Shown: positions 5,039 through 34,309, numbered from the stretch's first letter. The stretch: 44,716 nt of DNA from Gammaproteobacteria bacterium (GCA_021648525.1 JAKISP010000035.1:1-44716); one strand, 5' to 3'. The notes: generated by a model from the letters alone, not told the origin. A program made the numbers and translations.

Positions 5039-8000
5039 CTACATATTGTACCGGGTGTTACCAAGGATTTCCTGCAAAGTGTTCAGAGCATCGTCAAAGT
5101 CATAGTTATCGATCTGATTCTCAAGCAAGCTCACTTTGGCTTCCAGCGCATGTTGCCTGAGATAGGGTCGACACCGATCCAGACTCTCTTTTACATCAAT
5201 ACTGCCTTCAGTTAACTGGCGTTCCAGTTTTCGCGCGTACTCCGACCATTGTGCCATCTCTTCCGGTTTTTGTTCTCCGTCAGGGACTATTTTAGTCGCA
5301 GGCAAACCGGGTGAGTCAACCAGGCCATTTAACACAACACGGAATTCGTCGATAAAAGATGTTAATAATTCAGTATAAGGGTGCGTCTTGATGAGGGCCA
5401 ACTCCAACGCTTCGCATTTTTCCTCCAGCGGTTCTGCACCGATACTGCCTGCCACACTGCGCAAGGTATGCACGATACGACGTGCCCTCACCTTATCTTC
5501 CGCCTCCAGGGCATTGATGAGCGTGGTGTCATCGTCGCAATGATCTTCAACAAACTCCAGTAACAGGGTGCAAAACAGTTGACGGTTACCGCTGATTCGC
5601 AGCAGGCCCTTGTTGATATCGATACCGGGCAGGCTGGTGGGCAGCAGAAGATCACTCTCATATGATCGTATATGCTGATTAGTCACCTGCTCTGTCTGGT
5701 GCGCTGTCTGTTCTGGCAGGATAATCCATTTGCTCAAAGTAGCATACAGCAGGTTGGGGTCGATGGGTTTTGGCAGATGGTCATTCATACCTGCTTTGAG
5801 GCATTTTTCACGGTCACCGGCCATGGCATGTGCGGTCATGGCGACTATCGGTAGTTGTTTGAACTGTGGATTCTTGCGGATTATGCGTGTTGCCTGGTAA
5901 CCGTCCATATCAGGCATCTGCAGATCCATTAACACCAGATCAAATGCATTTGTATGGACCGCCTGTACCGCCATCGCACCGTTATTGGTGATGGTTACCC
6001 TGATCCCGCAGGCTTCCAGTAACTCTTGTGCTACCTGTTGGTTGATGCGGTTATCCTCCACCACGAGTACGCTGGCACCGTGCAAATCAGGTGCAATGTT
6101 GTGTTGCTGTGGTGAGGCAGGTGTACCATTAGTGGAGGGAGTCAGGGTGTCGATAATGGTATCAAAAAGTGTCGAGGGGCTCACTGGTTTGATTAGAAAG
6201 CGCTCGATACCTACCTGTGCCGCTGCATGGATCACCTCTTCCCGACCATAAGCGGTCACCATCATGATGGTCGGTAGTTGTGGCAGCCAGTTATTCTGGC
6301 GAATTAAATTGCTGCTCTCCACGCCGTCCATGCCGGGCATGTCCCAGTCCATTAATACCAGTTCATAAAATGGTTTTGATGTTTCATTGCTGGCGTGTTC
6401 CAGTTCTGCTAAAGCGGCTGCACCAGAGGCTACCGTAGTTACCTGGAAGGTGAATGACTCCAGCATCGCCTGCAAGGTTTGCCGCGTGGTTGCATTATCG
6501 TCCACCACCAGAACCCGCATGCCACGTAGATCTGGTGTGGGTATAAACGCGGTTTCTGCCTCATTACGGGAGCGTCTAAATTCGGCATTGAAATAGAATG
6601 TGCTACCGCTGCCCGGTTCACTTTTAACGCCTATTTCGCCTCCCATCATCGTCACCAGTTGTTTGCTGATCGCCAGCCCCAGGCCGGTACCACCATATTT
6701 ACGCGTAGTGGAGCCATCTGCCTGGGTAAAGGGATCAAACAGGTGAGGCACCTGGTTGTGTTCAATGCCAATACCGGTATCCTGCACTGAAAAGCGCAGC
6801 ACGACTCGCTCAGCATGCTGCTTTTGCAGTGACACCGCGACAACGATCTGACCCTGCTCGGTGAACTTCACCGCATTGCTGGTGAGATTGATCAGGACCT
6901 GCCCGAGACGTAGCGGGTCACCTACCAGACTGCGGGGAACTTCTCTGTCGATAGTGTAGATAATCTCGACCCCTTTCTCCGCTGCACGCATCGACTCCAG
7001 GTTTGAAAGGCTCTCGAATACGCCCTCCAGGAGAAAGTCAGTCTCCTCCATGTTCAGATGCCCCGCCTCTATTTTGGAAAAATCGAGAATGTCGTTGATG
7101 ACACTTAGCAGTGTGCGGGAGGAAGAGAGAATGTTATTGAGATAGTCATGTTGGCGTGGCGTGAGTTCAGTTTGATGGGCGAGGTAGGCCATACCCATGA
7201 TGGCGTTGAGTGGCGTGCGGATTTCATGGCTCATATTGGCCAGAAATTCGCTTTTGAAACGGTTGGCCAGTTCCGCTTGCTCTTTGGCATCGTGCAGGGC
7301 CTGAGCGATATTTTTTTGCTGGGTAATATCCGTCTGAGTGCCAACTGAGCGCAATGCGTTTCCCTGTGAATTGAGGGAGACGACTCCGCCCTTGGAGTGA
7401 ATATTGCGATACTCTCCATTTTTTGCGCGCAGGCGGAACTCATGTTCATAACGGGGTGTGGCTTGATCAATGGCCTCCCTCACCACTGCAATCGCAGCCT
7501 CTTTGTCATCAGGATGTAACAACGTTTTCCACGTCGTCTCATGCGCTGCAAGTTCACCAGGCGCATAGCCCAGCATGGTCATGTACCCGGGGCTGTAATA
7601 GACCTCACCTTTAGTTACATTCCAGTCCCACAAACCATCGGATGTTGCCGCCATTGCTAATTGAAAGCGCTCTTCGCTAATCCGTAGACGTTCCTTCTGC
7701 CGCTGCATGGTATAACCCCAGAGCAGTATGAGAAACAGGATAGCCATTGCGCCGATCACCACCTGCCAGAGCAGGCGATAGTCGATATGATTGATATATT
7801 TCTCCTGCATCCACTGGTCGACGATCTCATGCTTTTCAGCGGGTGTAATGAGATCAATGGCCTGGTTAAGAATGGCCAGCAATTCAGGCCAGTCCTTGCG
7901 TACCGCTAGCCCCACATTCATTACAATTGGCAGGCTACCGACGATGCGCAAATTGGTCAGTCCCATTTGATTGATCTGGTAACTGCCCGCAGTAAAGGTG

Positions 8001-10378
8001 ACGATCAGGGCATCTACGTGTCCACTGGACAGGTCAGTTAAGGCCGTCTGAATATTCTCTATTTCAATGAAATCAATTTCTGGATAGTGCTGGGCCAATT
8101 CCCAGGTGTAGCCATAACCCTTGATGACGGCAATGCGCCTGTCGGCAATATCATAAAGATCAGGGATAATAGCCGTCTGCTCAGTGCGCATAACGATCGC
8201 CAGCGGGCGACTGAGGTAAGGCCTGGTAAAGGTGTGGGTCCGGCGTATCTCCTCGTCTGCCAGGTCGCCAGAGATCACATCAATCTCACCACGCCTGGCC
8301 ATACTCAGTGCGTTCAGCCAGGTATCACTGGGTTTTCGTTCAAACTGAATCCCGATCTGTTGTTCCATGATCTCGAGTATTTCGGCAATAATGCCGACGT
8401 ATTCATTCTGTTCGGTAAAGGCCTCAAAGGGGAGCCAGTTGGGATCGCCAGTGAAGCGTATCGCTGGATGCTCCTGCAGCCAGGCGCGCGCTTGTGGGGT
8501 GAGATCGATGGCCTTGCGCTTGGGTGCTTGAGAGAAGGAGGAGGTGTCTATCGTGATCCAACGACGGCGGATCTCGATATGCTCCCTGGTGGTAATATCA
8601 TTGAGCGCTTTATCCAGAATTGTTGCCAACAGCGGCCAGTCACTGCGTACAGCAATGGATAGGCCGCTATTATCAAAAGGGGGTTTGCCTGCTACCCTGA
8701 GATTGGTAATAGCGTGTTTTTCCAACAGGTAAGTGACGACTGCCAGCGTACCGATGTAAGCATCGGCTCGTCCTTGTGACACCGACTCTAACGCTTCCAG
8801 TGTAGTGTTCACCTCCAGTAGAGGAACCCCGGGGTAATCCTTGCGCAAGGTGTCATGGTTTACGAAGTCCTGTTCAATAGCGATTGTTGCCTTGAACAGG
8901 TCGGTGTTGCTGCTGATGTCTGGGTATTCATCACGGGTAAAAATCGCCATGGATAGTTCGTTATAGGGTTGAGTAAACAGCGCGAATTGCTCGCGTTCAG
9001 GATTGCGGGAAATAGCGCTGATGGCATCCAGTTGTCTGTTTTTTAGCATCTCCAGTGTCAGTGCCCACGGATTATCCGCTATCACTTCGAATTTGATGCC
9101 CAGGCGCTGACCCAGCAACACCAGATAATCGGCGGTCAAACCCTGGTGTGTACCCTTCTCATCGACAAAATCAAAAGGTGGCCAGTCGGATTCACCTCCT
9201 ATGCGAATGAGCGGATGGTCGGCCAACCATGCCTGTTCTTCATTGCTCAGGCCAATGTGAGTCGTTGCTGCTTCAGCAACCTCATTTAAATCGAAGCGAT
9301 ATTGTTGCAGTGCTGGATTGTGTGCCTTGCTGAGCGTCCTGTAGTCAATGCTTTTTGGATCAGCCAGAATTCGCTGGAAACGATGTATGTTTTGATTGTC
9401 AATTGCAATCATATTGCTATTGAACTGCAGTTTCTCCTCCGCAAAATCGTGACCTTTCAGATAATCAAATATCATGATGACGGATTGAGCGCCATCGAAT
9501 ACATGGCCGCCGATGCTAACGTCCAATAGTCCATCAGCCAGGCCATCCATTGTGGTGGGCGTCCAGTCTATACCACCAAAAACAATCGGTTCGGTTCTAT
9601 CCAGTTGCTGGTAGTGCTGTGCCACTGCCAACGCCAGTTTGTCGTTATGACTCCAGACTATGTTGATTCCGGGGTGTTCGGTTAGCGCTTTTTCGAAACG
9701 CTGGATTGCGGTAGGGGTGACATTCGAATTCGGGAGTATATCTACCAGTGTCATGTCTGACCGAGCATTGACAATACGTTCGAGACCTTCAAGACGTCGG
9801 GCGTGGGAACGTGATTCCGCTCGCCCTGAATAGGCCAGCACCTGGAAGCCCTCGGCTCCTTTGTTTGCCACTCTGTGTGCCAGGTAGGTGATGAGCCTCA
9901 TCCCAGCCTCTTTATCATTGGGTACCACGCTGCCTACCCAGTACTGGTAGTGAATTCTTGGTAGCAGTGACTCGTTATCTAAACCCGTGTTGAGTAGCAG
10001 AGCAGGGATTTTGTGATGTTCCGCAATTTGCAGAATAGATTCGCCAATCCCCTGGAATTCCATAAATAGAATAGCATCGACGCCACTTGTGGCGGCTGTC
10101 TGTACCTGTTTGAGCATGCGACCAGTCGACATTCTGGCATGATGTACCTCAAGTTGAAGTCCAATATCATCAGCTGCGGCTTGGGCAAAAGATTCAAACC
10201 TGTCCCAGAAATCCGATGAATGAGGTAAAAAGATGGCTGCCCGAAAATCGGCTCTGGAATCAGCTCTGGCGTTGGATGTTGGGAGATCGGTCTCTACCGC
10301 CTGGGCAGCACAAAGCAGCGCTGGCATAAGCCAGAACAGTATAAAGGCCTTCCATTTCCGATAAAGTTCCCTGCCCAA
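5039..10378 (-). CDS. 1779-aa hybrid sensor kinase with three periplasmic binding-protein sensor domains
   Basis: A signal peptide (basic start, hydrophobic 11-27) precedes a type I sugar-binding-protein-like domain (about 45-345). Two successive SBP_bac_3 (amino-acid-binding-like) domains follow at about 385-610 and 630-862, then a single membrane helix (869-888). The cytoplasmic part has PAS/PAC (895-1025), HisKA with SHEIRTPLN (His1051), HATPase (N-box Asn1168, DTGIG 1200-1204), two receivers (Asp1344 and Asp1485) and an Hpt domain (His1637), ending in a helical tail. This is a complete unorthodox phosphorelay chain with BvgS/EvgS-like and LuxQ/TorS-like sensing combined. The start codon is TTG, preceded by GGAAGG at 9-nt spacing; the next Met (residue 18) would cut into the signal peptide. 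The HD-GYP gene downstream is the likely partner. Confidence 0.92.
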
Positions 10379-14434: not shown

Positions 14435-14835
14435 TGGTCTTCACCCCTGGCGCAATGGTTGATAACTCATTAGATCCTGCTGTGTGTTGATGTTTTCCTG
14501 GCAAAATGATGCACATCGATAATCTCATGTGACCTCGGGTTAGTGAGCTATGCAGCAGCCTTTACGAACAAGGGTTCCTGGTGGTTGGTTCCTTAAGTAG
14601 TAAGCATGACGCTAAATTTTATTGCTGTATTTTATACATTTCTTTTTGTGGGTTGCAATAACTTACATTTTATGGGATAATTTAGGATGCCGAAAGGCTT
14701 TAATTTCCTAATATTACACGCAAATATGTGGCAAATGGAATCAGCCATCTAGCATTCCCTGATCATTTATATTGACCTGGACGTCGCGAATTCGGAGTCG
14801 AAAATAGTGATGTCCAAGGTGCAGTTCCAGAGTCG
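14435..14835. other. 400-bp gap between cyaA and the secreted-protein operon
   Basis: No coding sequence is supported here. The left part shows no clear terminator for cyaA. From about 14610 the sequence becomes AT-rich and carries the promoter at 14653-14681, followed by an untranslated leader of roughly 150 nt before the next gene. The leader has no RNA motif I recognise. Confidence 0.5.
14653..14681 (+). promoter_or_regulatory. sigma-70 promoter of the secreted-protein operon
   Basis: TTGCAA (14653-14658), a spacer of exactly 17 bp and GATAAT (14676-14681) form the best sigma-70 match in the window. It points at the two-gene unit beginning at about 14845 and implies a 5' leader of about 150 nt. 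Confidence 0.6.
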
Positions 14836-14844
14836 GTGCAAAAT

Positions 14845-15915
14845 ATGCTGGTGATACTCAGCAAAGCATCCGCTATGGTGACTATCATCGGCTTACTCTG
14901 CTTGGCCAGCGTGCCTTCTGTGCACGCCGCTGATTTTTCGCTGACTTTTTCGCAACCACTCATTGGCGGAACCTTTCCCGGTTCGTGTAATACGGGAACT
15001 GGTGCTGGTGGCATGTGCGAAACCGCAGGCGCGGCGCAGGAGCTAGACCCCGATATGACCCCCTTTACTCAACGCAGTGTCGCAATCGATGGCATTACTT
15101 ACTGGCATCAGATTATCGGCGATCCTGACGAGGGTTTTGCGATGGAAGTTTATATCCAGCAGTCAGGGTTCCTGATATCGGATAGTGGTGGACGCCCTTC
15201 AAATTTCCCACTTCCGGGGGTTCTGTACCGGAAAGACCTGGATGTGCAGAGTGGCAATGGTTGGGATCCGCTTGGGCTTGATCCCTCCCGGGGTTCTAAT
15301 TTTACCGGCAATGGCACTGCCGACCCCACCAGAGTTGTTATGCGGCAGGTACTGGGCGGCAGCTGGAATGAGACGACCAGTACCTGGAGCTGTGGTGCGG
15401 CAGAGTTCTGTATGGACTTTACCAAAGCAGCCCTGGAGACAAAACCCAGAATCATGCAGTTAGTTAATGATGCTTCCGAGGGGTTTACGGCCTTTTTTGA
15501 TCTGGACATGAGCAACATTAGCTACGATGACAACACCACTGCAGGTACCTTGATTAACACCGTTACGCTTCCAGAGCTAGTGGATGTGCCGGTTATTTCC
15601 ACCACTCCGATAACGAGCAATGGCAATGGCGGTAACGTTAATAATGGGGGGCGCTTTAGTATGGAATCCGATACTCAGCGTAGTACCGTTACCGGTGGTC
15701 GTTATACATACACAGATGGTTCTGGCTGGGTTAACAATGGCACCGCTGATGGTTATCAGACCTGGGAATTTAATGAAGGTCGCTATGATTATTTTGATGG
15801 CGGGTTTGACCAACTTGGGCAGACCTGGGGCAGTTATTTTGATGCCACACAGAACGCTTTTCCGGGTAACGAGAGCAAATGCGATAGTGGTGTGCTTACC
15901 GGTTCCTGTCCGTAG
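14845..15915 (+). CDS. secreted protein of unknown function, partner of the giant propeller protein
   Basis: I do not recognise the family. The protein (about 356 residues) has a clear signal peptide (MVTIIGLLCLASVPSVHA, then ADFSL), so it is exported. The mature part has paired Cys residues (CNTGTGAGGMC, CGAAEFC, a C-terminal CDSGVLTGSC) that could form disulfides. A Gly/Asn-rich linker (NGNGGNVNNGG) is followed by an aromatic/Gly-rich tail (GRYDYFDGGFDQLGQTWGSYFD). There is no C-terminal anchor. Start choice is uncertain: GTG 14836, ATG 14845 or ATG 14875 are in frame, none with a strong ribosome binding site, and all keep the signal peptide. The next gene begins 18 bp after the stop, so the two are surely co-transcribed. 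Confidence 0.75.
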   Translation: MLVILSKASAMVTIIGLLCLASVPSVHAADFSLTFSQPLIGGTFPGSCNTGTGAGGMCETAGAAQELDPDMTPFTQRSVAIDGITYWHQIIGDPDEGFAMEVYIQQSGFLISDSGGRPSNFPLPGVLYRKDLDVQSGNGWDPLGLDPSRGSNFTGNGTADPTRVVMRQVLGGSWNETTSTWSCGAAEFCMDFTKAALETKPRIMQLVNDASEGFTAFFDLDMSNISYDDNTTAGTLINTVTLPELVDVPVISTTPITSNGNGGNVNNGGRFSMESDTQRSTVTGGRYTYTDGSGWVNNGTADGYQTWEFNEGRYDYFDGGFDQLGQTWGSYFDATQNAFPGNESKCDSGVLTGSCP

Positions 15916-15933
15916 TTTGTGGAGTATGGTGTT

Positions 15934-18900
15934 ATGAAGTTTGTCCCAATAAAAATTGAACCGCGCTCAGGTTGGCTCTGTTTACTGGCAGGGGTGATAG
16001 CGCTGGCAGCGTTGCCCGCCACCGCCCAGCACAGAGCAGTTCAGTTGACCCCGGGGTTAGCCACTTCTTTTACCGATTTTGGCAAGGCGGTGAGCACCGC
16101 CGGTGATGTCAATAACGATGGTTATGATGACATGATTGTCGGTCAGCCAAACTCAGGAAGGGTATATGTTTACTATGGCTCCGCCACGGGCCAATTTGCC
16201 TCGCAAAGCGGCTCTGTTGGGACCCCTGACTGGCAGGACACGGTCAATGCGGGCAACTTTGGTAGCGCCCTAGCCGCTGGTGATTTCAATTGCGATGGCA
16301 TTGATGACATTGCGGTGGGGGCTTACGATGGGAATGCTGGCCAGTTCAGAGAAGGGCAGGTCTATGTCTATTACGGCAGCGTTACCGGCCTTGCTGCCGC
16401 CCCTGACTGGCGTGCAGAGAGCGACGCTACAAATGCCTGGTTTGGCTGGTCGGTCAGTAACGCGGGTGATGTCAACAAAGATGGCTGCAGTGATCTGCTG
16501 ATCGGCGGACGCCGTTCCGGCAACGGTACGGCCACACTTATTTTTGGCGGCGACGGTGCAGGTGGCCCCGCACCACTGCCGGACGCCGATGCCGATGGCG
16601 TTGCCCGCCCCAGCGATTTTAGCTGGTCAGTGAGCGGCACGGGTGGTCTGGGTCAATCAGTCGCTGGCATTGGCGATGTCAACAACGATACGGTCGATGA
16701 CATTCTTATTGGTTCTCGCAATGGTAATATCTACATTTACTACGGTGTTTCCGCAGGCGTCCCAAACACAATCGCCGACTGGTCGGATAGCGGTTTCGGC
16801 ACCTTTGGTCGCTCGGTCGCCAAAGCGGGCAAAATCAACGGCGACACCGTTGCTGATTTTATCGTCGGTGCGCCTACGAGCAATGGCGGGGTGGTTCATC
16901 TCTACTATGGCGCAACGGGGGGGGCCAGAACAGACGGCAATTCCGACTGGAACTACACCGTGCCCAGCGAAGGGCATTCACACGGCTCCGACACCGGTTT
17001 TGCTGCCACCATCAGCGCTGCTGGTAATGTTAATGGGGATGGCTACGATGATTTTATCGTCGGCTGGCCCGTCTATCATGGTGGTTTGACAGGCCATCTC
17101 GGGCGGGTCTATCTTTTCCATGGTGGTGCGAGTGGCCCGGCGGCTACCCCTGATGAGACCATCGACGGTGCTCAGGAAGGAGCGCAGTTTGGTATATCGG
17201 TCTCCGCCGGGAATTTCGATGGCGACACCCTGGGCGATTTTATTGTCGGTGCGTCTAGCTACTCGGTCAATCTTGGTGCCACCATAACAGGGACCGGAAC
17301 CACGTTTGCCTACCTCAGTACGCCTGCGCCTGCACACATCACCATTGATCCACCACAAAGCTACACCAACTTCCACCTCACCTCGGAGGATGGGATTACC
17401 AGGACTTCCTCTTTCAGTCTCGTGCTGGATCGTCTGCCAGGCGCCGATGTCACCATCAACATCAGCAGTAACAACCCGGCTGAAGGTGTGGTATTGCCAG
17501 CTACGTTAACCTTTACCGTTGCTGATTGGAATGTGCCTCAGGTGGTCAATATCACCGGTGTCGATGATATGCTGGCCGATGGCACAGTGCCATACACACT
17601 CAGCTTTGCGGTCAACAGTAGTGATGCGGATTATAATGGGTTGATAGTTGATGAGGTGACCGCCCGCAACGAGGACGACGATGTCGTCGCCATCATTGTC
17701 GATCCGACAATGGAACTGGTGACCACAGAAGATCTTGGCACTGCCGCCTTCACAGTCGTACTGGACGCGCAGCCCACGGCCAATGTCACCATTGACCTCA
17801 CCAGTACTAATTTGCTGGAGGGCACTATCTTCCCCGCCTCTGTCACTTTCGATACCGTTAATTTCAGAGATCCTCAAGGGGTCACCATCACGGGGGTCGA
17901 TGATGCGATCCTGGATGGCAATATTGCTTACACCATTATTACCGCCCCGGCGGTCAGTAGTGACCCGAGCTACAACAACTTTAATCCTGCTGATGTTGAA
18001 GTGACGAATCATGATAATGACCTGAATACGAGCACCATCATCCTTGAAGGTAATCAGATCGGCTCACTGTTTGGTCGGACAGTTAGCGCTGCCGGGGATA
18101 TCAACGGAGACGGTTTTGCCGACTTTATAGTGGGAGCCCCCAAACATGATAACGGTCAGAGCAACGAAGGGCGCGTTTATGTCTACTTCGGTGCACCGGA
18201 AGGCTTCTCTTCCACTCCCTGGAGCGCGGAGGTCGACCAGGCGCGTGCCGAGTTCGGTGGATCGGTTGCGAGTGCGGGGGATGTTAATGGCGATGGTTTT
18301 GCCGATATCATTGTCGGCGCGCGCAAATATGATGGTGGTGAAGACGACGAAGGACGGGTGTTTGTCTACTACGGTTCAGCAGAGGGGTTGCCCGCCACTC
18401 CCGACTGGATGGCGGAAATTGACCAGGCTGGCGCGAATTTTGGCGCGGCGGTCAGCAGTGCCGGTGATGTCAATGGTGACGGTTTTGATGACATTCTGGT
18501 GGGTGCAGACAACTATTATGCCGCCGATTTTGTTAGCCCAGGTGCCGATTTCCCGCTGTTCGTTAAAGAAGGCGCCGCATTTCTCTTCTATGGTTCGGCC
18601 AGCGGCCTACCTGATGCGGTGCTGGATGGGATTGCCCGTCTCAGTGACGGTGACGTTGCGTGGCAGGGGGAGACTGGTGGCGTGGGTGCCGTAGATACCG
18701 CTAACTATGGCCGCGCGGTGGGCAGTGCCGGTGATGTGAACTGTGACGGCTTTGCCGACATCATTGTCGGTGCTCCCAAATACAATTTGGTCTCTTTTTC
18801 CGGTTTATGGGGTCGGGTTTGGGTCTACCATGGTGGGCCGTCAGGGTTGCGCAGTGATGGCAACGCCGACTGGACGATGCTCGGTCCGCAGGAGAGTACT

Positions 18901-21900
18901 AGTTTCGGCAGTGCAGTAGACGGTGCGGGTAACGTCAATGGCGACACCCAAGATGGTAATAGCTGTGACGATGTCATTATTGGTGCTGATGGTTTCGAGA
19001 GTACCAACACTGGCCCAACAGGGCAGGCAACAGAAAATAACGAAGGGCGGGTTTATCTCTATTATGGCTCACCGACCGGCTTGACGACGACCCCCTGGAC
19101 TTATGAAAACAACCAGGCGAACGGCAAATTAGGGATTGCGTCCGCTACCGTTGGTGACCTCAATAACGATGGTTTTGCCGACATCATTGCCGGTGCGAAC
19201 CGTTACGACGGCGGTGAGACCGATGAAGGACGAATCTACATCTATTTTGGTTCTGCCTCTGGTCCCGGTAATCCGGTGACTCGGGAGATCAATCAGGCGT
19301 CCGCTCTGTTTGGCACCGCGGTGGCCGGCACGGGTGATGTGGATGGCGATGGTAACGATGATTTCATTGTGGGTGCAACCCTTTATGATGGCGACCTTCT
19401 CAACGAGGGTGCCGCCTTCCTCTACCTCAGTGACCAGCCCGCGATCAAAGTTTATCCCGCTGCAGGACTGATCACCACTGAAACAGGTGGCAGCGATAGT
19501 TTCAGCGTGGTGCTCACCGATGCCCCGACTACCAGCGTTACCATTGGCCTCTCCAGCGATCTGACAGAGGGAACGCTTAGCAGCAGTTCCTTGCTGTTTA
19601 CACCGGCAGACTGGTTTACGCCACAAACCGTCACGGTCACTGGCGTCGACGATGGCAGCATCGACGGGGGTTTTCCTTATACAGTCGTTACCGCTGCGGC
19701 GGTGAGCATGGACAGCCGTTACAGCGGCATGAATGGCGAAGACGTGGCAGTACTGAATCTGGATGATGAGCGATCGACGGTGAGTATCATTGCGAGCGAT
19801 GGCGCGGCTAGCGAGAGCGGCCCCGACAGCGGAACCTTTACCGTGTCGCGGACGGGAGGAACCCCGTCACCGCTGCTGCTCTTCTATACCGTCGGCGGAA
19901 CCGCCACCAACGGTCTCGACTATCAGAGTCTGAACGGTAGTGTCACTATCGCCGCAGGCAGCAGCAGTGCTGTGATTACGTTGACGCCGCTGCTGGACGG
20001 ATTTTTTGAAGCAAGTGAAACGGTCATCGTGACCCTGAGTGTTGCGGCTAGTTACACCGTGGGCGTGCCTGCCAGTGCCAGTGTGACGATCAGTGATGGT
20101 ACTGCCAATGGTATCACGATCAGCCCCACCAGCGGTCTGGTCACCACCGAACAGGGCGGCAACGATACCTTTACTATCGTACTGAACAGCCTGCCAACGG
20201 CGGATGTCACGATTAATTTCACCAGCGATACCCCAGGGGAAGGCAGCCCCCTCGTGAGCGGTGTCACTTTTACCACGGCTAACTGGGATACACCACAAAT
20301 CGTGACAGTTGTCGGTCAGGACGACGCGGTGGTGGATGGCGATGCGGCTTACACCATTGTTACCAGCGTTACCAGTAGTGATAGCAACTATGCAGCACTC
20401 AATCCCGCCGATGTCGCGGTGATCAATCGGGATAATGATGCTTTGCCGGTGGTGACGATAGTGACCCGAAGTGATAGTGTTTCAGAAGGCGGCTTAGCCA
20501 CTTTTAGAGTTGCGCGCGCGGGTAGTACCGCCTCGAATCTGGTGGTGAACTACAACACCAGCGGTACCGCCACCAGCGGCATCGACTACACCACACCCAG
20601 CGGCACGGTGACCATTCTTGGCGGGCAGAGTTTCCGTGATGTGAACCTGACGACGACTAGGGATCCCGATCCAGAGGGCCCGGAGACGATAACGCTCTCA
20701 CTAATCGATAGCGCCATTTACATCGTCGGTTCACCGCGTGCCGATAGCGCCACTATCCGAAATACCTCAATCATCCCGGTTAGCTTTGGTTCCGACCAGA
20801 TAGTGGCAGAGGGCACCACGGTCCGTGTGCCGGTGGTCAAACGTGAAGCAGAGAGGGCCGTCACGATAACCTATACCGTGGCAGGGTCGGCAGAGAACCC
20901 GGCTGACCATGATGCGATGGATGGTAGTATTCTGGTTGCTGGGACAGATACGACGGGTTACATCACCTTTAATACGGCGATTGATGAGCTGTCGGAGGAG
21001 GATGAAACGGTTGTTTTCACTATTCAAAGCTTATCGCCGTCGGGCGGGTTTGGCAATAAAACCATCCACACGGTCACCATTACTGATGCGAATCTGCGTC
21101 CCGCCACCACCTTCCGGGCGGTTCAAGGTGGGCTCCAGACCCATCTGGTTGTTGCCAGCAGCGGCTTTGTTACGATGACGGCCAGCGTGGCCGACCCCAA
21201 CCCGGATGACAGCCATAGCTACGACTGGAGTCTGACCAATAACAATCTGATTGATGATGATCTGGATGGTGATCCCGCGACCTTTGTTTTTGACCCCAGC
21301 GGGTTGATGCCTGGTTTTTATAAAGCGCGCATAACGGTCACCGATGATGGTAGCCCGGTGCTGGCGGTGACCAATGAACTGCTGTTGGAGGTGGTGGCGA
21401 CGGCACCCACACTCGGCGCGTTTACTGACACTGATGGGGATGGCGTCAGGGATGCCACAGAGTCTTATGATGACAGCGATGGTGATGGCATCCCCGATTA
21501 CCTCGACCCCAACGCCATTGCACCGATACCCGACAGAAACCTGCCGCTCGATGCGCTACAGCAACTGCCGGTGCAGTACAAAAGTTACGTGATGCGAACA
21601 GACCCGGGGCTGGCGTTGCGCCTGGGGGACATCGCCTTTCTTGCTGGCAACGGCTCAGCACGGGTGAGCGTCGCCGACATTGCCAACTTCGGTGATGGCG
21701 AAGGGGGGCCGGGAGCCGCTAGCGCACAGGATATCATCCCGAATAGTGGCGGTTATTTTGATTTTGAGATCACCAGCCTGCCGATTGCTGGTCGTTCGGC
21801 TAGTGTGGTCATTCCACAGTTTGAGCCGCTGCCAAGTGGTGCACAGTATCGTAAATATCATCCCGTCAACGGTTGGAATAATTTTGTCGAAGATGCCAAT

Positions 21901-22278
21901 AATTCGCTCAGCTCTGCACCGGGCATACCGGGCCTCTGCCCGATGCCGAGGGATGCAGCCTATACGCCAGGTCTTACCGTGGGTGATTTCTGTGTACAGC
22001 TGATCATCGAGGATGGTGGCCCGAATGATACCGATGGCATCGCTAACCATGTCATTGAAGACCCTGGTCAAATTGGAGTGGTCGAATCACCACCAGGCGG
22101 TGGAGGTGAGCCGCCGCCAGTGGTTACCGAGCAGCCGGGGGGCAATAGCCAATCGAGTCAATCGGGCGGCGGTGGCATTATCAACCTGACCGTTATGCTG
22201 GGACTCTTCCTGTTTATCTGGTTCAGCCTGAGAACATCTGGACGGCGTACCGGCTGGCATCGCCCCGGCGCTGGGTAG
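15934..22278 (+). CDS. 2114-aa surface protein: two seven-repeat FG-GAP propellers, Calx-beta domains, GlyGly-CTERM
   Basis: The start is ATG 15934, 9 nt after GGAG; GTG 15919 is also in frame. A signal peptide (to about residue 32) leads into seven FG-GAP repeats (about 47-463) of the type AGDVNxDGxDDxIVG...VYYGSxxG. Two about 115-residue beta domains (470-700) and seven more FG-GAP repeats (708-1170) follow. Next come two more of the about 110-residue repeats interleaved with three Calx-beta domains (about 1171-1723), then a cadherin/PKD-like domain and a thrombospondin type-3 segment DTDGDGVRDATESYDDSDGD (about 1831-1850). A choice-of-anchor U-like region with CPMPRDAAYTPGLTVGDFC comes next, and finally a GGGG stretch, hydrophobic helix and Arg-rich tail typical of GlyGly-CTERM. 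FG-GAP and TSP3 motifs bind calcium. The likely role is surface adhesion or matrix structure. Confidence 0.9.
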   Translation: MKFVPIKIEPRSGWLCLLAGVIALAALPATAQHRAVQLTPGLATSFTDFGKAVSTAGDVNNDGYDDMIVGQPNSGRVYVYYGSATGQFASQSGSVGTPDWQDTVNAGNFGSALAAGDFNCDGIDDIAVGAYDGNAGQFREGQVYVYYGSVTGLAAAPDWRAESDATNAWFGWSVSNAGDVNKDGCSDLLIGGRRSGNGTATLIFGGDGAGGPAPLPDADADGVARPSDFSWSVSGTGGLGQSVAGIGDVNNDTVDDILIGSRNGNIYIYYGVSAGVPNTIADWSDSGFGTFGRSVAKAGKINGDTVADFIVGAPTSNGGVVHLYYGATGGARTDGNSDWNYTVPSEGHSHGSDTGFAATISAAGNVNGDGYDDFIVGWPVYHGGLTGHLGRVYLFHGGASGPAATPDETIDGAQEGAQFGISVSAGNFDGDTLGDFIVGASSYSVNLGATITGTGTTFAYLSTPAPAHITIDPPQSYTNFHLTSEDGITRTSSFSLVLDRLPGADVTINISSNNPAEGVVLPATLTFTVADWNVPQVVNITGVDDMLADGTVPYTLSFAVNSSDADYNGLIVDEVTARNEDDDVVAIIVDPTMELVTTEDLGTAAFTVVLDAQPTANVTIDLTSTNLLEGTIFPASVTFDTVNFRDPQGVTITGVDDAILDGNIAYTIITAPAVSSDPSYNNFNPADVEVTNHDNDLNTSTIILEGNQIGSLFGRTVSAAGDINGDGFADFIVGAPKHDNGQSNEGRVYVYFGAPEGFSSTPWSAEVDQARAEFGGSVASAGDVNGDGFADIIVGARKYDGGEDDEGRVFVYYGSAEGLPATPDWMAEIDQAGANFGAAVSSAGDVNGDGFDDILVGADNYYAADFVSPGADFPLFVKEGAAFLFYGSASGLPDAVLDGIARLSDGDVAWQGETGGVGAVDTANYGRAVGSAGDVNCDGFADIIVGAPKYNLVSFSGLWGRVWVYHGGPSGLRSDGNADWTMLGPQESTSFGSAVDGAGNVNGDTQDGNSCDDVIIGADGFESTNTGPTGQATENNEGRVYLYYGSPTGLTTTPWTYENNQANGKLGIASATVGDLNNDGFADIIAGANRYDGGETDEGRIYIYFGSASGPGNPVTREINQASALFGTAVAGTGDVDGDGNDDFIVGATLYDGDLLNEGAAFLYLSDQPAIKVYPAAGLITTETGGSDSFSVVLTDAPTTSVTIGLSSDLTEGTLSSSSLLFTPADWFTPQTVTVTGVDDGSIDGGFPYTVVTAAAVSMDSRYSGMNGEDVAVLNLDDERSTVSIIASDGAASESGPDSGTFTVSRTGGTPSPLLLFYTVGGTATNGLDYQSLNGSVTIAAGSSSAVITLTPLLDGFFEASETVIVTLSVAASYTVGVPASASVTISDGTANGITISPTSGLVTTEQGGNDTFTIVLNSLPTADVTINFTSDTPGEGSPLVSGVTFTTANWDTPQIVTVVGQDDAVVDGDAAYTIVTSVTSSDSNYAALNPADVAVINRDNDALPVVTIVTRSDSVSEGGLATFRVARAGSTASNLVVNYNTSGTATSGIDYTTPSGTVTILGGQSFRDVNLTTTRDPDPEGPETITLSLIDSAIYIVGSPRADSATIRNTSIIPVSFGSDQIVAEGTTVRVPVVKREAERAVTITYTVAGSAENPADHDAMDGSILVAGTDTTGYITFNTAIDELSEEDETVVFTIQSLSPSGGFGNKTIHTVTITDANLRPATTFRAVQGGLQTHLVVASSGFVTMTASVADPNPDDSHSYDWSLTNNNLIDDDLDGDPATFVFDPSGLMPGFYKARITVTDDGSPVLAVTNELLLEVVATAPTLGAFTDTDGDGVRDATESYDDSDGDGIPDYLDPNAIAPIPDRNLPLDALQQLPVQYKSYVMRTDPGLALRLGDIAFLAGNGSARVSVADIANFGDGEGGPGAASAQDIIPNSGGYFDFEITSLPIAGRSASVVIPQFEPLPSGAQYRKYHPVNGWNNFVEDANNSLSSAPGIPGLCPMPRDAAYTPGLTVGDFCVQLIIEDGGPNDTDGIANHVIEDPGQIGVVESPPGGGGEPPPVVTEQPGGNSQSSQSGGGGIINLTVMLGLFLFIWFSLRTSGRRTGWHRPGAG

Positions 22279-22420
22279 TGACTAGTTTGATGGGAATCTC
22301 TGATACCGTTATTTCCATGTATTGATCTGGGGTGGGACATCGCCCAGGTTGGCTAGCCAGTTGTGGGATGGTTTCATTCCCCGCGAGCGTTTATACTTGC
22401 TCTTTTTTCCAGGAAGCACC

Positions 22421-22564
22421 ATGTTTCAATTCTCCATCACTCATGACCTATTGAGACTAGTGAGCTGCTCTGCGGTGGTTCTATGGTTAACCGGCTGTGG
22501 GCAAAAGGGTGATCTCTATCTACCTGATGAAGCCGTTCAGTTGCTGAATATAATCGTATTTTAA
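22421..22564 (+). CDS. lptM: small lipoprotein LptM/YifL-like
   Basis: This 47-residue protein has a signal sequence and the lipobox region WLTGCGQKGDLYLP, the hallmark of the LptM (formerly YifL) family encoded next to lysA in many gammaproteobacteria. After lipidation on Cys it sits at the inner leaflet of the outer membrane. In E. coli it helps the LptD-LptE lipopolysaccharide translocon mature its disulfides. The ATG at 22421 follows AGGAAG at 5-nt spacing. Its stop is followed by the lysA start after one base, so the two are translationally coupled. A TATACT at 22392-22397 may be the -10 of the operon, but its -35 is not clear. Confidence 0.85.
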   Translation: MFQFSITHDLLRLVSCSAVVLWLTGCGQKGDLYLPDEAVQLLNIIVF

Positions 22565-31830: not shown

Positions 31831-31959
31831 ATGAAGTTCGCGCTGACAAACCGCGTGATAAAACAAGGTTTAAGTGGGTGGTGTGGGGATGAAAAAAGGG
31901 TTCAAAAAAGAGTTCGGGCTAGCGTTAGCGCTAGGTCTCTCGCCGTTAGCGCATGCTGA
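31831..31959 (+). CDS. possible 42-aa upstream ORF overlapping the next gene
   Basis: ATG 31831 follows GGAG at 7-nt spacing, a better ribosome binding site than that of the downstream gene. The frame runs 42 codons (MKFALTNRVIKQGLSGWCGDE...) and stops inside the signal-peptide region of the next gene, which is read in another frame. It may be a leader ORF that couples translation to the next gene, or chance. The product is basic and unrecognised. Confidence 0.3.
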   Translation: MKFALTNRVIKQGLSGWCGDEKRVQKRVRASVSARSLAVSAC

Positions 31960-34309
31960 TATTACATTCGATGTGTCAACATTTGTCGATGGGGTTGATA
32001 GTAATCCTGGCGATAATATCTGCCAGACAGCCAGCAATGCCTGTAGTCTGCGTGCCGCAGTGCAGGAGGCTAATCTTCATGATGGCGTCACTACCATCAA
32101 CCTGCTGGAGGGGCTTTATACCTTAGGTGAAGGTGTTGCTGATACTGAAGGCAATAATCAGAACCCGATTGATGATAGCGCTGGGGATCTTGATATTTTC
32201 AATGGAAAAACAGTCATTATAAACGGCGTAGGTTCAAGGGTTACGGCGATTGATGGCATGAGGGAAGACCGTGTCTTTGATGTGCGTAATGGTGCCCATT
32301 TGATATTGAACGATCTCACTGTGCGTAATGGCTTCGTCTTTATTCCTGTCATTAATCCTAATGTCTTTACGATTAGAGAGGATTATAGTTCTGATGAAGC
32401 GGGTGGTGGGATTAAGGTTGATGGCACTCTCGTACGTTCAGCGCTAACCCTGAACCGAGTGGCTGTTGTCGGCAACGCGGCCTCTGTGGGCGGTGGTGGC
32501 ATTGATATTTTATCGTCGAATGTAGAGATCAACGCCAGTACAATTAATGGTAACGATGTGGTCGGTTTTGGTGGTGGGCTTAGTATCATGAATAGCCGCG
32601 TTGATATTAATGATAGTGCGATTACCAATAACATCAATGATGCCCAGACGATTATCTTTGGCGGCGGCATCTTTAATTCATCGTCGGACGGGGACGATTA
32701 CTTAAATATTACCCGTTCAACCATTTCGAGCAATAGCGCCTACCGTGATGGTGGCGGGATTTACCATCAGTTTGGTGAATTGAAGATTGTTAATTCGACC
32801 ATTAGTGGTAATACCGCCGGGAAATGGGGTGGTGGTCTGTTTAATGCGGACACGCTCTTCTGGACTGATGTGGATCTGATTCAAACCACGATTACCGATA
32901 ATGCAGCGATTGGTAATATTAACGACGATACACAGACTCAGCAGTTTCCTGATGAGCCTAAAGGGGGCGGGATTTATAATCGTGCTCAGACAGGGACGAT
33001 GGGTGCCGCACACATGAATCTGTTTAATAGTATTGTTTCAGGAAATGGCCTGGGTAATGATTGCTATAACGATCTGATGACTTCCAATACAAACAAAGCG
33101 TTTATCAACAAAGTGGGCACATTGATTTCCAATGAGTCCTGTTTGAACCTGAATGAGCCTGTACCTGCTTATGGTTTGCCGCATTTTCAGTCGTTGACTT
33201 TTAATGGTGGTGGCGCAGAGACACACGCGCTGCTGAACGCAAGTGACGCGATTCGTTTAGGGGTCATCGAATACTGCCCCGATCATGATCAGCGAAGATT
33301 TGAGCGCCGAGGTTTAAGTTGTGATAGTGGTGCCTATGAGTTTGCAGCGAATGAATTTAGTATGCCATTGGTCGAGGTTGCCATCGCGTTTGGTGGAGAG
33401 CCTTTAAATTATCGGCCTGAGGTATCTAATCTGCTGATTGATGTTGCTCCTGGGATGACAGTATCCGGTCAGCTAGTCGTTTTCGACAGGGATGAGGAGG
33501 ATCTAGCAGGTGGCTCCTATAAGCAAATTACCCCTCCCTTTACGACGAAGGGCTTTGTGACTAGCCTGGGCGAAGAGACCGGCGCATTTACCTACTCGGC
33601 AGTGGCTGGTAGCAGTGGGATTGACCAGTTTGGTTTTGAGTACTGTGATGCAGGAGGCCTTTGTGACCAGGGCGTTGTCTCCGTGCTGATTAATAATGTC
33701 GCGGTGGAGTCTGGCGTGACGGCGACGATTTCTCCTGGTGATGGAACGGTGAGCCTGGTAACAGTGATTGCGGATGCCGACCTGGTTGGCACGCTCTCTG
33801 ATGCTGATTTTGCGTTTCCGTTGGGCGCAATGTTTTTTGATGTGACCGGTATTCCTACTGATCAGAGTTCTGTGACGGTTACTCTGGTACTTCCCGCTGG
33901 TCTGGATGTAGCACAGGATGCGGTGGTGAGAAAGATGAATCGCTTTGATACCTGGATGACGCTTAGTAATATTGTGAATCCTGATTTATCATCTGCTGTT
34001 TTTACCCCAGCGGCAGGCGCTACCCCCGCGATGGTGACGCTAACACTGGTGGATAACGATATCTTTGATCTTGATAGAAGGATGGGGTCGATTAGTGACC
34101 CAGTTGCAGTGGGTGTCTCAGCAGGGCCCACAATCACAACCCCCAATCCAACCCCAACCCCAACCCCCACAAATCCAGCGCCAGCTGTCGGGACGGATGT
34201 TGCTGTTGAGGGTGGCGGTGGTGGTGGCGGTGCAGCTGGCTTAGGTTATCTCTCGGCGCTGTTATTATTAGGGTTGTGGCGACGACGTTTTAACGCGATT
34301 CAGCACTAA
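31889..34309 (+). CDS. secreted CSLREA / parallel beta-helix protein with GlyGly-CTERM anchor
   Basis: The start at ATG 31889 gives 806 residues with a signal peptide (MKKGFKKEFGLALALGLSPLAHA). A CSLREA-type N-terminal motif follows (DNICQTASNACSLRAAVQEAN). Then comes a right-handed beta-helix (about 60-420) built from repeats such as STINGN, SAITNN, STISSN and STISGNTAGKWGGGLFN, and a choice-of-anchor Q-like end (GVIEYCPDHDQRR...CDSGAYEF). A beta-rich region and a Pro/Thr linker (PTPTPTPTNPAP) lead to a classic GlyGly-CTERM: seven Gly, hydrophobic helix, RRR. Such tails are cleaved by rhombosortase and the protein is exported by type II secretion. Function is probably surface binding or polysaccharide interaction. 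It is followed by a strong terminator. Confidence 0.88.
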   Translation: MKKGFKKEFGLALALGLSPLAHADITFDVSTFVDGVDSNPGDNICQTASNACSLRAAVQEANLHDGVTTINLLEGLYTLGEGVADTEGNNQNPIDDSAGDLDIFNGKTVIINGVGSRVTAIDGMREDRVFDVRNGAHLILNDLTVRNGFVFIPVINPNVFTIREDYSSDEAGGGIKVDGTLVRSALTLNRVAVVGNAASVGGGGIDILSSNVEINASTINGNDVVGFGGGLSIMNSRVDINDSAITNNINDAQTIIFGGGIFNSSSDGDDYLNITRSTISSNSAYRDGGGIYHQFGELKIVNSTISGNTAGKWGGGLFNADTLFWTDVDLIQTTITDNAAIGNINDDTQTQQFPDEPKGGGIYNRAQTGTMGAAHMNLFNSIVSGNGLGNDCYNDLMTSNTNKAFINKVGTLISNESCLNLNEPVPAYGLPHFQSLTFNGGGAETHALLNASDAIRLGVIEYCPDHDQRRFERRGLSCDSGAYEFAANEFSMPLVEVAIAFGGEPLNYRPEVSNLLIDVAPGMTVSGQLVVFDRDEEDLAGGSYKQITPPFTTKGFVTSLGEETGAFTYSAVAGSSGIDQFGFEYCDAGGLCDQGVVSVLINNVAVESGVTATISPGDGTVSLVTVIADADLVGTLSDADFAFPLGAMFFDVTGIPTDQSSVTVTLVLPAGLDVAQDAVVRKMNRFDTWMTLSNIVNPDLSSAVFTPAAGATPAMVTLTLVDNDIFDLDRRMGSISDPVAVGVSAGPTITTPNPTPTPTPTNPAPAVGTDVAVEGGGGGGGAAGLGYLSALLLLGLWRRRFNAIQH

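Follow-up and report, generated by a model that had tools for sequence, protein, structure and literature searches.

Tandem seven-blade FG-GAP propellers have been known in bacteria since 2011 (PMC3192720). In that study the Rhodobacterales HTCC2654 entries, with fourteen FG-GAP repeats, were taken as two seven-blade integrin-like propellers with a calcium motif in the 1,2-loop, and a strand before blade 1 was predicted to close blade 7. The two propeller sets of these entries are described as closely spaced, and a membrane-anchoring hydrophobic segment is reported to be lacking. The bacterial propellers described there carry a calcium-binding DxDxDG-like loop in all seven blades; metazoan integrins have only three or four calcium sites. 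Other described proteins offer models for how such a protein may work at the cell surface. The matrix adhesins Bap1 and RbmC have a Sec signal, are exported by type II secretion and bind biofilm exopolysaccharide by their propeller (PMC10102183; PMC4551309). For VesB, a GlyGly-CTERM protein, cleavage by rhombosortase, attachment of glycerophosphoethanolamine and type II export have been shown (PMC6219818).

The window analyzed here is a stretch of 44,716 nucleotides from a marine gammaproteobacterium (GCA_021648525.1 JAKISP010000035.1:1-44716). It encodes a large secreted protein, P0001, which is apparently the second gene of a two-gene operon with P0002 (Table 1). The plus-strand frame is open from a GTG at 15919 to 22278. 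The ATG at 15934, from which the sequence-only reading began, is the better choice of start, with GTGGAG about 10 bases upstream and a signal-peptide-like stretch after it. Elsewhere in the window, a 1,779-amino-acid hybrid histidine kinase with periplasmic-binding, SBP, PAS, two receiver and Hpt domains lies at 5039-10378.

Table 1. Features of the P0001 locus, numbered from the first nucleotide of the window
Feature	Position	Strand	Basis
Islet (approximate extent)	14435..22376		cyaA-lysA gap of 243-273 bp in six congeneric genomes
P0002, secreted, 359 aa; apparent partner of P0001 in an operon	14836..15915	+	same order in L026
P0001, large secreted protein	15934..22278	+	open frame; 2,114 aa from ATG, 2,119 aa from GTG 15919
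Predicted Sec signal peptide, residues 6-36, ...ALPATA/Q	15934..16026	+	read from sequence
Propeller 1, residues 37-470, candidate closing strand and seven FG-GAP blades	16027..17328	+	blade profile; integrin alpha matches
R1 and R2, inter-propeller beta domains of ~115 residues each	17332..18024	+	mutual identity 42%
Propeller 2, residues 703-1174, candidate closing strand and seven FG-GAP blades	18025..19440	+	blade profile; integrin alpha matches
R3, Calx-beta 1, R4	19441..20439	+	R3/R4 47-52% identical to R2; Calx-beta match at residues 1305-1393
Two further Calx-beta-like domains	20443..21090	+	three Calx-beta stretches in protein; C1-C3 alignment
Ig/PKD-like segment, then Asp-rich DTDGDG...DSDGDG stretch	21091..21507	+	read from sequence
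Choice-of-anchor U domain (NF041766)	21751..22080	+	38.9 bits, cut-off 32
GlyGly-CTERM-like tail, GGGG-hydrophobic-RR, ~ten residues beyond RR	22165..22275	+	sequence

The FG-GAP cores of P0001 fall into two blocks, with starts at residues 61, 120, 182, 251, 303, 368 and 430 in the first and at 725, 786, 848, 937, 1003, 1078 and 1138 in the second. A blade profile finds these same fourteen units and none elsewhere in the protein, at 42-65 bits in propeller 1 and 43-75 bits in propeller 2 (42-75 bits overall), but as this profile was built from the fourteen units of P0001 itself, the independent tests are the Pfam FG-GAP and PDB sequence searches. Pfam FG-GAP matches P0001 with E=4.7e-71. Each block searched alone against PDB sequences finds integrin alpha chains only (the best E-value is 1.4e-14 with block 1 and 2.9e-21 with block 2), as does a profile of eight bacterial propellers. 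In the orthologue from the MAG SZUA-128 (L026), which is 80% identical over its full length, the blade profile gives fourteen matches of 40-77 bits each. The count is thus exactly seven plus seven units, as given by the sequence-only reading, and profiles, orthologue and integrin homology support two complete seven-blade blocks in P0001.

In both blocks blade 7 is short and stops just past its third strand, and ahead of blade 1 there is a segment that resembles a strand (HRAVQLT in propeller 1, STIILEG in propeller 2). Each of these segments is a candidate for the strand that would close the seventh blade and so the ring, as happens in integrins. The case for ring closure comes from sequence, because AlphaFold2 on the double-propeller region (residues 37-1180, two-sequence alignment) gave a mean pLDDT of 27. 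The division into two blocks given by the sequence-only reading holds, but the block limits shift to those in Table 1 once the closing strands are counted.

A canonical DxNxDG or DxDxDG loop is present in nine of the fourteen blades, three of seven in propeller 1 and six of seven in propeller 2; four of the five degenerate loops are in propeller 1. The calcium-rich design that had been proposed is therefore a fair description of propeller 2 and a weaker one of propeller 1, and calcium binding by the propellers is predicted from these loops. Since not every blade has its loop, P0001 falls outside the stricter bacterial subset of PMC3192720. The missing loops count against membership of that subset only, because metazoan integrins carry three or four sites.

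Bacterial proteins with two propellers are not new, and P0001 is an unusual and distinctive member of the family by its spacer domains and probable anchor. It shares with the HTCC2654 entries the fourteen repeats, the calcium motif and the candidate closing strands. It differs from them in that its rings are 232 residues apart (R1-R2), five of its calcium loops are degenerate, and the chain runs on into Calx-beta and choice-of-anchor domains to end in a hydrophobic tail. To the N-terminal propeller of integrin alpha it is related by the seven FG-GAP blades, with significant matches to alpha-V, alpha-IIb, alpha-5 and alpha-4; unlike integrin alpha, P0001 has two propellers, no recognized thigh or calf domains, and another stalk and anchor. 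Fourteen blades each are also found by the blade profile in proteins of a Melioribacteraceae MAG (L027) and a Borrarchaeum MAG (L028). A multi-propeller FG-GAP protein of a Pseudomonadales MAG (L032) shows up to 20 blade matches in one frame.

The ~110-residue beta domains noticed at the outset between and after the propellers are real, as are the Calx-beta-like domains, of which there are three. Pfam Calx-beta (PF03160) matches P0001 in three stretches (E=4.7e-20, 72 bits, cut-off 27). The placing of repeats between and after the propellers stands as first described; their exact order is R-R between and R-Calx-R-Calx-Calx after. The R copies are 42-52% identical to one another. A PDB sequence search gave no match for R1-R2, and no Pfam model reaches its cut-off on the R family. 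For kinship of the R domain with Calx-beta, profile comparison gives a probability of 6%, and two of nine copies match Calx-beta (best E=0.0036).

Beyond the stalk, the Choice-of-anchor U model is over its cut-off, and reaches 53 bits for the whole frame; a PDB sequence search of the C-terminal region gave no match. The tail displays, in both species, a glycine motif, a hydrophobic stretch and a basic cluster in that order, as do VesB-type substrates of rhombosortase. It differs from theirs in length, since GlyGly-CTERM proteins have zero to five residues after the basic cluster (PMC3237569), and P0001 is not an enzyme as VesB is. The GlyGly-CTERM model TIGR03501 has six matches in the genome, none at the P0001 tail, and the tail alone gives only a weak match to the SVAGG variant (E=0.37). 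The same genome encodes a rhombosortase (TIGR03902, 173 bits, cut-off 84) and the type II secretin GspD (594 bits, cut-off 351). The GlyGly-CTERM anchor that had been read from the tail is plausible, although the tail scores below the model. To cross the outer membrane, a protein with the GlyGly motif needs another secretion signal as well (PMC13393428). Export of P0001 by type II secretion and its attachment to lipid are predicted from motif and gene content. The window also encodes another choice-of-anchor protein, of 811 amino acids with choice_anch_Q and U domains and a GGGGGGG tail, at 31874-34309.

P0001 is under purifying selection, with a dN/dS of about 0.12 against the SZUA-128 orthologue (about 0.11 for propeller 1 and 0.09 for propeller 2), values that are rough since synonymous sites are near saturation. 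The order cyaA-P0002-P0001 recurs in SZUA-128. Six other congeneric genomes have cyaA immediately followed by a short lipoprotein gene, with an LptM-like GCGQKGDLY motif, and lysA, with 243-273 bp from cyaA to lysA; the P0002-P0001 islet is thus present in two of the eight genomes examined at this site and absent from six. Homology of the right flank picks up again near 22376, and P0001 has 56% G+C, against 50.5% for the window. A 47-amino-acid LptM-like lipoprotein with a GCGQKGDLY motif is encoded at 22421-22564, between P0001 and lysA. A plasmid or phage origin was considered and rejected: no plasmid location reaches 80% coverage of P0001, and plasmids and phages yielded no match to P0002. 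Rfam and promoter/terminator scans revealed nothing that alters the reading.

The preferred interpretation, with a probability of roughly 55%, is that P0001 is a large protein that acts at the cell surface as an adhesin or as a matrix linker, lipid-anchored and calcium-stabilized, with two integrin-alpha-like propellers on a stalk. The two seven-blade propellers would stand outside the cell, at the free end of the stalk of R and Calx-beta-like domains. The pair would bind a ligand in two copies, with a polysaccharide or a matrix protein as the likeliest candidates, and with two binding rings one P0001 molecule could cross-link. Ligand binding and an adhesive role are suggested here by analogy; the adhesin or scaffold role proposed by the sequence-only reading is reasonable. 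Published parallels are Bap1 and RbmC, which P0001 resembles in Sec signal, beta-propeller and (for P0001, predicted) type II export; in this comparison, drawn from the literature only, they differ by a single eight-blade propeller and beta-prism domains, and no GlyGly tail is reported for them.

In favor of an adhesin are the seven plus seven blades in two species, the PDB matches to integrin alpha chains only, the nine canonical loops, purifying selection on both propellers, the choice-of-anchor domain, the rhombosortase and GspD of the genome, the published cases of VesB, Bap1 and RbmC, and a paralogue in the same genome that has propellers, a choice-of-anchor end and a GGGGG tail. Counted against it are the FG-GAP and VCBS propellers of enzymes and toxins in the literature, the eight blades of the Bap1/RbmC propeller, and a P0001 tail that is below the GlyGly-CTERM model and continues past the basic residues. 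The paralogue, a protein of 2,973 amino acids (L073:4862-13780, G000 C46), matches FG-GAP, FG-GAP_3, LVIVD and Calx-beta and possibly forms three propellers. Its choice-of-anchor end is like that of P0001, and a divergent gene of the P0002 family lies 669 bp away.

The propellers could instead be receptor modules for nutrients or glycans, so that the protein would capture substrate at the cell surface to be taken up or broken down. VCBS-type propellers are typically tied to carbohydrate recognition (PMC9218822), and GlyGly-CTERM proteins of known function are often enzymes (PMC13393428). However, Pfam and NCBIfam searches found no catalytic domain in P0001, and the pair is flanked by cyaA, lptM and lysA, with no transporter or hydrolase gene next to it. 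A receptor is unlikely.

The end of P0002 is separated from the ATG of P0001 by 18 bases, and the protein is 70% identical to its orthologue in SZUA-128. P0002 falls into no Pfam or NCBIfam family, and searches of Pfam, NCBIfam and PDB sequences with its family gave isolated single-member matches only and nothing consistent. The structure model of P0002 has a mean pLDDT of 70, with a core at about residues 151-230 at about 89-95; Foldseek of the model against the PDB gave no fold assignment (best match E=0.48). At the loci collected for comparison, iterated profile searches yielded a family of 47 members, multi-copy in this genus, in which His, Pro, Lys and Gly columns are invariant. Several members are solitary at a conserved gpsA-linked site. 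At L044:535-3021 (G002 C11), a P0002-like domain directly follows, in frame, a choice-of-anchor protein whose tail is GGGG; this may be a fusion or a lost stop.

A neighbor with a GlyGly-like tail is found for nine of the 47 P0002-family genes and for ten of 291 other open reading frames at the same loci, an association that is suggestive only, as four of the nine loci (the window, L026, L073 and L114) were chosen for P0001 or its paralogue and the tail rule, a crude one, picks up ordinary membrane proteins as well. Together with the close spacing, the gene order kept in two species and the in-frame arrangement in G002, this association has prompted the idea that P0001 and P0002 are a two-component unit, in which P0002 would serve P0001 as its ligand, its chaperone or its cap. 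The bias in loci and tail rule weighs against this idea, as does the solitary state of most family members, and it is rather improbable. A bolder version is still more doubtful, namely that the P0002 family is a new small secreted class serving rhombosortase-anchored propeller proteins, and that the cyaA-lysA islet is a surface module of two genes that can be swapped, with a propeller pair that would bind its own partner protein.

The sequence-only reading also saw in P0001 the duplication of a propeller-plus-repeat unit, which predicts R1-R3 and R2-R4 as the closest R pairs. R2-R4 is the closest pair of all, but R1-R3 (43% identity) and R1-R2 (42%) are the two least similar. When the blades of propeller 1 are paired in order with those of propeller 2, the score of 659 ranks 86 of 5,040 pairings (77 of 720 without blade 7), which is only modestly better than random. 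On blade cores the rank is 1,081 of 5,040, without register signal, and blade P1.5 is closer to P2.4 than to P2.5. In the tree the two propellers of P0001 are sisters (84/82 support), and the pair adjoins a propeller of the paralogue (91/93); the propeller stems measure 1.21 and 0.97, roughly tenfold the branches since the species split (about 0.1). Blade pairing, stems and R pairing speak against a recent duplication of the whole unit, and any duplication of the propellers would be old. Despite the sister grouping, the rank of the in-order pairing and the R2-R4 pair, duplication of the whole unit inside the P0001 gene is the least probable of these proposals.

P0001 represents a clean bacterial case of two full integrin-type propellers, separated by a spacer and with a probable surface anchor of the kind reported lacking in the 2011 examples. 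The uncharacterized, multi-copy secreted P0002 family, which is sometimes found beside such surface proteins, is the part that most deserves follow-up.
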